From Rhabditophanes sp. KR3021 (taxonomy: Eukaryota; Nematoda; Chromadorea; Rhabditida; Alloionematidae), in contig CAUJLY010000004.1 in NCBI GenBank assembly GCA_963281155.1, positions 5,580,001 to 5,644,000 on the forward strand: DNA of 64,000 bases, written 5' to 3'. The translations under genes were made by a program, and so were the position numbers. Under the pieces are notes generated by a model. It ran no database searches. It was given only the letters and a program-made list of their open reading frames with translations, and was not told the DNA's origin. This document shows, in pieces, positions 44,693-50,770 of the stretch (position 1 is the first letter of the stretch; the number at the start of each line of letters is the position of its first letter).

Positions 44693-46455
44693 TCAGATAA
44701 TATTCAAATAAATAGAAAGACAGGAAAAAGTTTTTAAACTCTCTGATATCTCAGAAAAGCTCTTATAATGAGCAGGTCCGACAACGATCTCCGCGCATTG
44801 GACAAGATCTTCTAATTTATCCGAATTCATTAAAGATTCAGCTTTCTTGATTTGATTTTCACCTAGACGCTTCACATTCCTAATGAGGTGTTGTTTTAGC
44901 TGTTTTTGAATGGAATTAGCATATGTTTCCACATTTGTTTTGCCTTCATATGTTTGATCAAACAATTCAGCTTTTTCCAAATTATCCATGCAGCAGGTTT
45001 CCAATTTCTTCAAATTTGCCAACAATTTACGCTCCCGACACCCGTTAGGGTTAAGTTGATTAATGATTAAGTCAAACTTGTTCTTACTATCAATATAGTA
45101 ATGATCATAACCTTCACAATCAACCATAGTAGTCGTTGGTGAAATCTTGTTAATTAGTTCATCCTCCATAGTTGCTTCTGGATTAAAAGACTCTCCATAC
45201 TCTTGGAAATTTGTAGCCAAGTTAGGACATCTCGGTTTTGAGACAGTAATATGACAGACACCAGGAAAAGCTCTGTAGATATTAAAATTCCTATCCAAGC
45301 CAATAACAAGGTCGCTTTTATTCCAAACCAAGGAAATCAGATTACTCTTCCGTTCATTTAGAGCTTCAATCTCACGTTCCGCATTGCTTATTCTTTCTTC
45401 AAATTTAATCAAATAAGAAGAATGTTGTTGTGCTGTTAGCTTTCTACCTCCAGCACATGTCGTTTTGAGAAATGCGGCTTTTTCTTTTCTCTGCTGAGTG
45501 ATGATTTTTCGCTGTTCCGTAAGTTCATATTCAATTTGATCCATCGGGACATCATAGATACTTTGCAAAAGCGTTGAATTCATATTTTTCTCCATACCTT
45601 TATAAAATTCCATTAGATACTTAATAACATTGAATTTTTCATCCGGGTTCAAATTGAAAAAATCCCTGAATTCAACTCCTGCCCTTCCAGCTTCTCTCAC
45701 TTCCTTATCAAGAACGAATTTGTCTTTAAGTGTGTCTTCCTTCAGAATCAACATATAAATAAGAGCTGTGAAGTTACTCGCACTGACATGTTTTCCTTTT
45801 ATCGCATGATTGAGTAGTTTTAAATCCCATTTTGAATTTTCAATAAAGTATGCAACTAATGTTCGCATAGCATTGCCAAAAATAGTTGGAATAGAGTTAT
45901 TCGTATCACCCAGACCTTCTTTAAATGAAGTGAATGTCAATCCATTTTTACGAGGCTTTTTGAAGTTAACTAAGGTAATCATATGCATCATGTTCCAAAA
46001 ATGCTCCTCATGCTCTTTAGTTGTGCGACCCTCAAAGCAGGAAGGCAAATTGATTTCGGAATAATCGGCAAAACCAGGCAGGAATTGGTCATCAGTCGCA
46101 CAAGTTTGATACATTTGTACCAAAACATCGTCAATACCAAAAAAAAGCTTCTTCGGATTCTTCTGTAGATAGATGTTGACCCTAAGATAGTCTTGAAGCA
46201 CCTTGTCTTGGATACCGTCAATCTCATCAACCGTAGTATTAAGCATTTGCTCTTTAATCAGTTGATTTGCTCTATCCCAATTGAACCTCCAGAGGTATTC
46301 CTTCAAGAATTTTAAACGAGCCAAAAAAACCTCTATAAATGACAAGTTATATAAAAAATTAGTGTTATCAATGACTTACCTTTAGGTGAGATTGTTCCAT
46401 CTTCAACCCCAACTTCTATTATGCTATTTTTAGGTTTCACTCTTGATTTTGTCAT
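44693..46455 (-). CDS. WHIM/WSD-motif protein, putative chromatin-remodelling-type factor
   Basis: Two exons, 46455-46380 and 46332-44693, phase 1 junction across a 47-bp intron, 571 residues. The best landmark is LVIGLDRNFNIYRAFPGV near residue 370, which resembles the WHIM2/WSD signature (xGxDRxxNRYWxFP) of BAZ/ACF1/WSTF and Itc1-type ISWI partners. It is preceded by a long coiled-coil/basic stretch (QIEYELTEQRKIITQQRKEK to ALNERKSNLISL), as in those proteins. The N-terminal 250 residues are helical and could correspond to DDT/WHIM1, but I cannot align them securely. No PHD finger or bromodomain is present. Expected to be nuclear. Alternative: an unrelated nematode-specific protein with a chance motif. 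Confidence 0.5.
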
Positions 46456-46827: not shown

Positions 46828-49800
46828 TTAAAGTTTAGCCAGCATCATAAGTGCGCTTTTGGCAAGGGAAAAATCTTGTTCAGGATCAAAGAGACTAATC
46901 ATTCGAGCATTGAGACGAGTTGAAACACTTTTAGCTTTCTCAACATAGGCTACTGCATTAGATGGCAGATCAGAATTGATGAGAACATCGAACTCAACTC
47001 CAGTAGCAGTTTTATAGGACTCCTCAGTAACAACAAGAATTGGCAATTTGGAGAGATTAAATTCATGCAATGCATTGGCCTTCAAATCTCCAGGTTTATC
47101 GTTATTCAAAGCAAACGCATGTAATCCATTGTAAATCAAGAAGTCAGCCATGATATCAGTTTGTTGCTTTAGACTAACAAAGATTAAGATTCTTGGCAAT
47201 TTTGCATTAGGACCTTGCTTCTTCATGATAACATTCATTTCATTGCGGATGATTTCCAAAATAGTTTTATTTTTAAAACCATTTTCAACTTTGATTATAT
47301 CACTAACATTGACTCTTTCTTCCTTGGTCTTGCTGGTGATGGTAACGAAATTTTCTTTCAGTATTTCTAAAGCTAAAGCATTGACTTCTGGATTAAACTG
47401 CTCGGCAAAGATTCCATTGACTCTATATTCAGAGGGGCAACAGTCATACTCATTAATAATCTTCCGAATGATGTCAAAGAAGTTTCTGAGATACATATCA
47501 CCGGCATCATCAATAATAAGATACTTCAAGTTCGTCAAACTAATTTCTTGAGATTTCAAGAAATGATTGAGCCTTCCAGGAGTAATGCACAAAATATTGC
47601 ATCCACGTTTCAACTCTTCCACATTTTCCTTGTACATATATTGTCCAAAACCTTTAGCAATAGACAAAATAGGTATTAGATCATCATTTTATTTTGTTAT
47701 TTTTATATCATAATATTTAGTATCAAATTTAAAAAGACTGCGTACAGTAAGGATTATTCATCTTTCACCGCTTTTAAAATTATCTTCCAAAATATGAAAT
47801 AAAATTACCCTGTTATTCGTTGCCGTCGAGTACAATGAGCACATGTCACCTAAACTCTCAAAAATGTATGAAGTCTCTACATCCGTTGGTTACTTCGATG
47901 TGACATTCAAAGGAGGACTGTCAGCTAGATTGGCACAAATTTGGGAATGTTGTCTCATCATTGCCAACTCCTCTTCAACCAACTTGGATCAAGGAACAGT
48001 TGATGACGACTTGATCAGCATGCTCGATTGTAAATCAGTTGGATTGCTAGGGGAACATCTAACTCATTTACTTTGTGAGACGAGTGAAAATGATCGAATT
48101 GACGTGCCAAAAAATTGATCCAAGTCACGGATACTGCAGAGGAAACATTGCTAAAGCTAAAGAAATCAAGAATAAACTCGATCAACTCAAAGCCAACAAG
48201 GGAGACATTGCATGTTGCGTTTATTTTTTTTGGACTCTACTGCTCTTCATGGTGGGTGGAAATTAGAAGATGTTCTAGATGCCATTAATATGCTGGTGAA
48301 ACGAATTGCATGCCAGTAAGGATGAACGCACACAGAAATGCCTTCAACACTTCTCTCAAATTAGGATTTGTCTTTGACAAGAAGCAAAGATTCCTCAACA
48401 AACTTGTCACTGCAGGAAAGAAGTTGGTTGTTGTCAAAAAAGATCGCTGAAGACATCGAAGCAATTCTCATCAACGGTCTTCGTAGTCAACTCACCAACT
48501 GCGACTCTGGAAAGCCATCATTAGATTTTGTATTGGCTATGAACCCTCAAGTAAACTCGCAAGTTGCCCAATTAATTCTCAAGGACTTCTCAGAATGCGA
48601 AGAGCACATTATGAACTATTGACATATTTTTGTGTTTTAATAAAATTTCTAATAATTACCTTTAGCAATAGAAACGCTAGTTCCTTTAGTAAACTCTAAG
48701 GCAATATCACAAATTTCGAGAAGAGACTCGCGCGTGGGAGTTAGAATAACTGCAATCGGTTGATTAGACTCATGAACAAACCCGCCTTCAAGTATTTTGT
48801 CGATAATTGGTAAGAGGAAAGAACAATTTTTAGTTGTCTTGTCTACAATCTCAACTTTAAAATCTTTTTGAGCGCACAGGACAGGCATGATGTTAGACTG
48901 CATCAATGCGGGCTCGGGGTATGATGAGTCCCTGATACGTTTTTGAAGTATAGGATTGAATCCACAACTTTCCAAATTTCCATAAACTTCAATTTCTCCT
49001 TCAATCACTGTGCCGTGAACTTCTTTTTCCATACTTTTTGAGTTTTCACTGAACTTAGACTCTTGAGTAAAAGCAGGATGAGTTGGAGGAAGAAGATCGT
49101 GTGCTACATTACTTTCAATATATTGGGGTTCCTGTCTCGGAATAAGTGTATCTGGTTCGGAATATCTGGCATCGTTCGTTTCAGTAGGAACAGTTTGCCC
49201 ATTAGTTTGATGACTCGAGAAATTTTGGCTATTGTTTTGAGAAAGTTGAGTGGAAGATGTCATTTGAACTGGAGGTACACAATGAGATGCAACTGGAGAT
49301 ACAAATTGGGATGTAGCTGGAGATATGAACTGAGATGCACCCGGAGAAGCATTATAAGGTGCTGGAGCAGAATTAAATTCATTTGGTGGATGGAAAGCAT
49401 TTGAGTTTGATTGGTCATTGTAATTTCTATGAATACTTGAATCACTAAAATTTCTTTCATGACGATTTCCATACATTTCAGCTTGTGCCTGCTGTAAAAA
49501 TAATTTGTCCTGACATTCTTCACCATTGCATTGGTTTCGTGAAGAGGATCTGTTGTTGTGATACTTCTGCGTTGATGTCCTTAATCCATCATAATCATGT
49601 CCCTTGTAACCTTGATTGTGTCTTGGTTGGTCATCAATGTGAATGATATTGCTATTCAAAGAGTGATTGTCATAAGAATGAACAGTTTCAAACTCCTTTG
49701 CTTGATTTGGATTGACTTGATTGAAATTGGCTTGACTTGCATTGACTTGATTATTGTTGGTTTGATGGGCATTGCCTTGGTTGGTGTTGGAATACAACGG

Positions 49801-50478
49801 GGCTGAATTTTGATAACTGTCACTAATACTTCTCTTGTCGTCATTAACAGATTCTGTTTCATGAAAATCAGAGTACTCAACCGGGGAATTGTTTTGGAAC
49901 ATTGAAAATGGTTCCTTAACTTCGACTTTTGGAACAAACGGCTTGATACTGTCCAAGGAAGCAATGTCTTTGAATGAGAACTCATCATTTGAATTTTCAG
50001 CATGTCTCAAGTCGTTTGCATCACCATAATGCTCGACAAAACCACCTCTTGCATTGTAAGCCAATCTTACGTCATCTCGAGTTGTTTCGCCACCGCATCC
50101 ATAACAAGAATCTTCATCCAATTCACCACCACCATTGACTGTATGAGCATTTACAATTCCAAAAGATCCACCAGAAGCATTCGATTTAGGATAAACCGCT
50201 GGAGCATATGTGTCATGTTGACTATCAAATCCACCTCTTCCACCTTCGTAATGATTTTGGTCCAAGCCACCTCTACCAGAATCGTACTGATTGCCTTGAT
50301 TGTTGTTATAGCATTCATTGTCGTTTCTTTGAGGGTACTTTTTGCAGTCTCTGTCGTAATCGCTCCTACCACTACGTCTATCATTCAGATAATTTTGATT
50401 TTGGCGATCATATCGTTGATTTGAAGAGCGGTTGAAGCCTTGTTGTTGAGAGTATTGCTGAGACGGGAAATAAGACAT
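46828..50478 (-). CDS. Vasa/DDX-like DEAD-box protein with all catalytic motifs degenerate
   Basis: Two exons, 50478-48660 and 47651-46828, phase 1 junction, 880 residues. The N-terminal 430 residues are Asn/Gln/Ser-rich with GRGG repeats and one CYGC, like germ-granule helicases of the Vasa/GLH type. The two RecA-like lobes keep the fold (ILTPTRE = motif Ia, CITPGRL = Ib, ISLFDPEQD near the end). But motif I lacks GxGKT, motif II is IDDAGD instead of DEAD, motif III SAT is absent, motif V is TATGVE, and the HRIGRTGR of motif VI is replaced by VEKAKSVSTR. The frame is open throughout, so it is probably a retained non-catalytic scaffold. The single intron (47652-48659, 1,008 bp) is flanked by 15-bp direct repeats and contains a decayed gene. 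Confidence 0.8.
47650..47664. repeat. 15-bp direct repeat, left copy (target-site-duplication-like)
   Basis: ACCTTTAGCAATAGA, identical to 48658-48672. On the host (minus) strand it reads TCTATTGCTAAAG|GT and supplies the AG acceptor of the helicase intron. Confidence 0.85.
47665..48657 (+). pseudogene. Decayed gene copy inserted in the DEAD-box gene intron
   Basis: Antisense to the host. From about 47810 to the stop at 48622 the plus strand keeps protein-like sequence in successive frames: VSTSVGYFDVTFKGG, then KAKEIKNKLDQLKANKGD, then GGWKLEDVLDAINMLVK, then NGLRSQLTNCDSGKPSLDF and SQVAQLILKDFSECEEH. At least three frameshifts separate them. No retained intron is obvious and AATAAA lies about 15 bp before the right direct repeat, so a retrocopy that has lost its poly(A) is possible. 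The parent protein was not recognised. Confidence 0.65.
48658..48672. repeat. 15-bp direct repeat, right copy (target-site-duplication-like)
   Basis: ACCTTTAGCAATAGA, identical to 47650-47664. On the host strand it supplies AAAG|GT, the donor of the helicase intron. Confidence 0.85.
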
Positions 50479-50770
50479 ATTTATTAATAGCTAACAAATG
50501 GAGAGAGACTATTCGTGAAGTAAATGGTGTAAGTGATTTGCCTTGATATCAAAGTATCTTTTAATATTCAAATTATATAATGAACAAGTGTCATTTTTAA
50601 AAGAACACCTATCCATACGCAACAAACTAAAATACAACACACTATTTATATAATATGCAAATAAAAAGATAATCAGAAAGGTTTAGTAAAATGTGTTATA
50701 TGTATGTAATTACTTCCGCTACAGCAATCCAATGTATCCAGGATACAATTTGTGGTTCTGTAATAAGAGA

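Follow-up and report, generated by a model that had tools for sequence, protein, structure and literature searches.

The origin of new introns is a long-standing question, and very few cases of introners, families of similar introns dispersed in unrelated genes, are known from animals. The question is raised by a Vasa-like DEAD-box gene of the nematode Rhabditophanes sp. KR3021, which lies in a 64,000-nucleotide (nt) stretch of contig CAUJLY010000004.1 (positions 5,580,001 to 5,644,000; GCA_963281155.1), hereafter called the window: where did its predicted 1,008-nt intron, which holds a 993-bp insert between two copies of a 15-bp repeat, come from? Our answer, to which we assign a probability of about 60%, is that the intron belongs to a large introner family that encodes a nuclease with tandem GIY-YIG domains and becomes a spliceosomal intron upon insertion. 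We infer splicing at the predicted sites, and creation of the intron by the insertion, from comparison of the copies and their host genes.

The predicted intron and its flanking repeat

The 15-mer ACCTTTAGCAATAGA occurs in the window only at 47650-47664 and 48658-48672, even with one mismatch allowed, and the largest count in 100 shuffles was 0. The two copies match at 15 of 15 positions, and each contains AG|GT on the minus strand, the strand of the host gene. The copy on the host 3′ side (47650-47664) reads TCTATTGCTAAAG|GT and holds the acceptor AG, with the intron ending at 47652; in the copy on the host 5′ side (48658-48672), exon 1 ends at 48660 and the intron GT occupies 48659-48658. 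The predicted spliceosomal intron runs from 48659 to 47652 on the minus strand (donor AAAG|GTAATT, acceptor CTAAAG|GTTTTGG), and its removal restores ...TSVSIAK-G-FGQYMYK... in the host protein. The DEAD domain (PF00270) scores 14.9 and 36.4 bits in the separate exons and 67.2 bits in the joined ones, where it is continuous over profile positions 4-151. Exon 1 (48660-50490, minus strand) lies in an open frame at 48649-50490 whose start codon is not fixed; exon 2 (46828-47651, minus strand) carries DEAD and Helicase_C sequence and ends with a stop at 46828.

An initial annotation of this DNA had called the exact 15-mer at each intron end, the 1,008-bp intron, and the restored frame, and all three held up here, the last on the strength of the joined DEAD score. 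It had also derived both splice sites from the repeats; AG|GT does come from them, but the AATT that follows the donor GT is element sequence.

The insert is a decayed GIY-YIG gene

The insert occupies 47665-48657 (993 bp, plus strand, antisense to the host); compared with other members of the GIY-YIG introner family, it has lost internal sequence. What is left is a degenerate gene whose product would carry two GIY-YIG endonuclease domains. A frame piece at 47798-48118 (plus strand) corresponds, from MSPKLSKMY on, to the E...N half of the first domain; frameshifted middle pieces at 48063-48288 (plus strand) extend to the start of the second domain; and a piece at 48365-48622 (plus strand) supplies the C-terminal end of the second (IAEDIEAILI...NCDSGK). 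An AATAAA stands on the element coding strand at 48639-48644 (plus strand), shortly before the element ends, as had been annotated. The description of the insert as a frameshifted antisense gene copy proved half right: the frameshifted plus-strand coding pieces are there, but they belong to a dispersed, mobile-looking family and not to a copied host gene.

Better-preserved members occur elsewhere. At locus L061 (543-2072), an uninterrupted frame of 509 amino acids (aa) encodes two GIY-YIG domains; it lies antisense in a predicted intron of a ryanodine receptor gene, and a 289-aa element frame lies within the predicted ARPC4 intron. The predicted product of the family gene has tandem GIY-YIG domains and zinc-finger-like Cys/His motifs. 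It shows the domain, the fold, and the conserved catalytic residues of GIY-YIG proteins, and coding positions are conserved across the family pieces. Foldseek by itself found no significant match for the element protein; a second structure aligner gave GIY-YIG matches. The element proteins scanned had no reverse transcriptase match, and no transposase was seen in the element. We found no relatives outside the genome at E ≤ 0.001 in a set of 5.8 billion proteins, using as queries one frame, a 445-aa protein, and a 44-piece alignment, and none among phages or viral contigs; since the searched protein collections may hold few animal proteins, it does not follow that the family is unique.

Size, age, and distribution of the family

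Searching the 44.8-Mb genome for the insert, as the initial annotation had proposed, revealed at least 39 further places that match it at the DNA level (scoring covered 40 of the 78 first-look candidates). Protein searches of the genome with two family members gave 138 and 99 matches, and the DNA search and both protein searches, merged within 3 kb, yielded 176 clustered places; this number is a minimum, and distant relatives are among those counted. We examined 42 copies with their flanks: 39 fetched copies, the window locus, L055, and L061. The copies have both ends in common and differ in their internal deletions. Terminal inverted repeats were not found; the mean end-to-end score over 40 copies was 8.46, compared to 8.42 for shuffled ends. 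In the window itself, no family member was found beyond the 993-bp insert. The genome gave 72 matches to the cuticle-collagen N-terminal domain, which speak for a nematode; SL1 RNA (Rfam), another nematode marker, had no match, and neither did its control.

Over pieces of ≥150 nt, the best matches between copies are 68 to 84% identical, apart from one pair in glutamate dehydrogenase (GDH) genes that is 97% identical; the family is therefore old. The initial annotation had called the intron gain recent, which we do not uphold: the copy nearest to the window insert among those compared is only 79% identical, the unchanged repeat also fits a fairly old insertion, and with so few unconstrained bases in the repeat (about 13) the window copy need not be young.

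Family members are unevenly distributed. The largest contig, C6, has 7 of the 176 places where 44 are expected, a strong depletion, and C5 has 3 where 9 are expected; perhaps these contigs represent a sex chromosome or differ in chromatin. Extra family pieces lie near some fetched copies (L016:5065-5238, L022:250-741, L030:4448-4639, and L047:3681-4422), and L016 may have two family members within one gene. On the host 5′ side of L030 and L047, element end sequence appears by eye to be in tandem duplicate.

The family occupies predicted introns of unrelated genes

For 35 of the 42 loci we submitted the host gene to protein scans: in 34 the two flanks were fused in host orientation, and L012 was represented by exon 1 only; L015 (a paralog of L018), L017, L021, L023, L030, L046, and L047 were left out. 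Splice sites were picked by reading frame and consensus, so domain matches, not open frames, count as evidence. A Pfam domain or solved structure spans the rebuilt junction in 24 of 34 cases, and in each of these the element gene runs antisense to its host. The first set of bridged hosts comprises GDH (L018), VPS4, mTOR, and citrate synthase; a second (7 of 10 bridged) Biotin_lipoyl, Adaptin_N, BLTP1_N, Cpn60, MBOAT, FAA_hydrolase, and MoCoBD_2; a third (6 of 10) 2OG oxygenase, Oxidored_molyb, Transketolase_N, Pkinase, adh_short, and KIX, whose match reaches the junction only at the domain edge; and a fourth (6 of 10) DEAD (the window locus), ARPC4, Glyco_transf_24, RRM, MOZ_SAS, and Glyco_transf_43. 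The ryanodine receptor junction is also bridged. No bridging match was obtained for the junctions at L011, L020, L024, L031, L033, L034, L035, L036, L039, or L040 (acceptor guessed at the last). The L016 host, at one point taken for a ceramidase, is BLTP1 by domain scan.

Similar sequences thus form the predicted introns of unrelated genes, as introners do. These hosts also bear on a simpler reading of the window, namely that the insertion broke the Vasa-like gene and that its splice sites are there by chance. Splicing at the window is indeed a prediction from sequence; the same architecture recurs in VPS4, mTOR, citrate synthase, and ARPC4, which are unlikely all to be dead, and we give this reading very little credence.

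At L014, L017, L028, and L044, hundreds of open codons lie on either side of the copy (829 and 484 at L014), which means that an introner can be the sole intron over kilobases of coding sequence.

Several members are part of a composite intron. At L019, L023, L029, L032, and L033, a mini-intron of about 45 nt that ends in TTTTATTTTAG or similar is followed by a G and then by the introner donor, which in composite introns is GTAACTTACT or a close variant; L024 has a version without the extra G. As we read L019, L029, L032, and L033, the G is kept as a one-base exon needed to restore the protein. With this G kept, KAT8 (L032) and UGGT (L019) align through the junction with solved structures, and an RRM spans the junction of L029; L033 has no domain match. 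The 22-mer TTTTATTTTAGGGTAACTTACT occurs 11 times in the genome at ≤2 mismatches, compared to 0 times for the reversed pattern, and by coordinates 8 of the 11 sites adjoin a family member. As in the stwintrons described from Xylariales fungi (PMC12403724), two adjacent introns would both be removed, and the composite recurs at several loci. In a [D1,2] stwintron, as defined there (PMC12403724), the internal intron interrupts the external donor after base 1 and before base 2; L019, L029, L032, and L033 have instead a complete mini-intron, the one-base exon G, and the introner donor in succession, so these are not [D1,2] stwintrons.

Intron ends and target duplications

We measured 19 introns, counting L015 and L018 each and setting element boundaries by hand; they reach about 1.5 kb. 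The sequence not belonging to the element is <40 nt in 17 of 19, shorter than two ordinary introns elsewhere in the window (by eye, about 47 and 53 nt). The upstream exon ends in G in 19 of 19 cases, preceded by A in 11, and the downstream exon starts with G in 16 of 19; the scoring favored G at both positions.

Clear target repeats flank four copies: the window insert (15/15 positions), L033 (10/10), L009 (14/16), and L041 (13/17). The last three straddle splice sites, and the window repeat overlaps coding sequence on the exon side. Apart from the window insert, 33 copies, some with hand-picked junctions, differed from permuted partners (P = 0.0023), and 18 of them were in register compared to 11.5 expected (P = 0.0074). 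A first version of the repeat test, on 27 copies, gave P = 0.003 ungapped and P = 0.04 gapped; with automatic junction picks only, P was 0.013 for 27 copies and 0.008 for 18 bridged ones. Introner-type birth by duplication of an AG|G site, the proposal of the initial annotation, gains support from the fit at the window, the further copies, and the bridged junctions.

The repeats also speak to spread through RNA, in which an excised intron would be reverse-spliced into another transcript and then copied back into DNA. That route would account for the single orientation relative to host transcripts in the 24 bridged cases; reverse splicing, however, gives no target duplication, whereas the window, L009, L033, and L041 have repeats, and the antisense nuclease gene favors insertion at the DNA level. 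We regard such spread as highly improbable.

A possible trace of homing and a model for intron birth

The two GDH paralogs, L015 and L018, lie on the same contig, separated by about 218 kb, and carry a copy at the same site. Their introns, identical at 791 of 812 positions, form the closest pair among the copies compared. Identity extends into the flanks: the final 60 exon bases upstream of the intron are identical, and downstream bins 840-1140 match at 279 of 300 positions. Further out, it falls to 198/236 upstream and 502/660 downstream, where the outer bins contain an indel and are not necessarily all exon; these outer flanks are 76 to 84% identical, compared to 97% for the intron copy. A frameshift precedes the intron in L015, which may therefore be a pseudogene. 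A tract of identity that fades on both sides would be expected from homing with co-conversion, and ordinary gene conversion would look alike.

These features can be combined in a model. The element would insert into coding exons, mostly at G|G and often at AG|G, with 10 to 17 bp of target duplicated in the best cases. Its own nuclease, acting in cis or in trans, would make the staggered cuts: two GIY-YIG domains could nick opposite strands about 10 to 17 bp apart and so yield the duplication. The element 5′ end, read backwards, would provide a T-rich tract, and its 3′ end, read backwards, the sequence following the donor GT; the acceptor AG and the donor G would come from, or adjoin, the duplicated target. 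Splicing would remove the element and one repeat and restore the protein, making the insertion nearly silent, while the nuclease gene would stay on the opposite strand. Two properties would let antisense landings survive: in that orientation the element ends present a T-rich tract and a donor, and the element AATAAA is absent from the host sense strand. The nuclease could also home into an empty paralogous site. In its full form, that these are self-mobilizing spliceosomal homing introns of an animal nuclear genome, whose tandem GIY-YIG protein cuts G|G exon sites with a 10- to 17-bp stagger, inserts the element antisense, and homes into a paralog's empty site, as at GDH, the model is one that we hold tentatively, at somewhat less than even odds.

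Evidence against the model and alternative origins

Several observations weigh against this interpretation. Target duplication is clear in few copies and undetectable in most, and as a group the copies are weakly significant: leaving L009 out of the automatic picks raises P to 0.08, leaving out L009 and L041 raises it to 0.17, and fixed windows that make no use of splice picks gave P = 0.11 for 38 copies. L044 leaves 49 nt of non-element intron and L038 leaves 100 nt, with an uncertain boundary at L038. No copy was found that combines introner ends with an intact two-domain frame.

Some of these points are what one would see if the elements had entered pre-existing introns, without intron gain, and if the antisense bias reflected selection against poly(A) signals in host transcripts. 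Transposons inside introns usually show an antisense bias, most copies lack a clear duplication, and the L038 and L044 introns, by their rough boundaries, have sequence to spare. Such an origin is improbable: the remainder in the 17 short cases is less than an ordinary window intron, and the repeats at the window, L009, L033, and L041 reach into coding sequence or across splice sites.

The lack of a copy with both introner ends and an intact two-domain frame would fit a genuine introner in which the GIY-YIG gene is a passenger and is not, or only partly, the mover; an unrelated enzyme, such as retroelement machinery, would then act in trans. The genome has 37 RVT_1 matches, many in long open frames, and target-primed retroelements commonly give long target duplications of variable length. 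Penelope-like elements, as described in PMC3846280, pair a reverse transcriptase with a GIY-YIG nuclease. The nuclease frame, on the other hand, is what the family shares, with its coding positions conserved; copies keep both ends and lose their middles, unlike 5′-truncated retrocopies; and by eye the inspected ends have no poly(A) tail or pseudo-long terminal repeat (pseudo-LTR). We consider a passenger nuclease unlikely, though it retains an appreciable chance.

Comparison with known systems

Returning to the introner interpretation, a survey of 3,325 genomes found introners in only two animal groups (PMC9860276); copepods are named among the bearers, and the word "nematode" is absent from its main text. 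Like the families reported there, ours consists of dispersed similar introns in unrelated genes; part of the splice-site sequence comes from the insertion site, and a few copies show target duplications, as known from some of those families. Our family differs in length (median family lengths in the survey are 30 to 654 nt, compared to introns of up to ~1.5 kb here), in its repeats (3 to 9 bp in some earlier families, compared to 10 to 17 bp in our best cases), and in carrying a nuclease gene. A study of nematode intron gain treats introners, in the text available, merely as precedent (PMC9169325). In the titles and abstract openings that we searched, with most subscription papers outside the scope, neither a nematode introner family nor a cellular GIY-YIG introner appeared.

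A gene of the homing-endonuclease type sits inside predicted spliceosomal introns here, as in the shintrons of mirusviruses, in which GIY-YIG genes are nested in spliceosomal introns and spread by cutting has been proposed; GIY-YIG endonucleases with spliceosomal introns are said in that paper to have been unseen previously (PMC12768974). Shintrons occur in giant viruses that infect protists, where most are aimed at particular virion genes, whereas our family occupies many unrelated genes of an animal nuclear genome, in antisense and with two GIY-YIG domains. Penelope-like elements resemble it as eukaryotic nuclear elements with a GIY-YIG endonuclease and target duplications (PMC3846280), but the element proteins scanned gave no reverse transcriptase match, and by eye no pseudo-LTR was seen. 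LEM-3/ANKLE1-type nucleases are host repair enzymes. They and other cellular GIY-YIG nucleases are likewise animal GIY-YIG proteins (PMC11975286), from which ours differs as a dispersed family with two such domains.

Elsewhere in the window, an open frame on the minus strand (44693-46375) has a WSD (D-TOX E) motif (PF15613; E = 1.1e-07).

The family looks like an intermediate between known introners and mirusvirus shintrons, joining two known kinds of element and linking introners to the homing-endonuclease introns lately reported from giant viruses. Many copies in this genome lie in readable hosts, and the window locus keeps a clear insertion footprint; the tandem GIY-YIG gene points to a mechanism undescribed for introners in the literature compared, and the GDH pair opens the homing of a spliceosomal intron to direct test. 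If the model is true, the nuclease itself would make the intron, a route of intron birth with no transposase or reverse transcriptase in the element.
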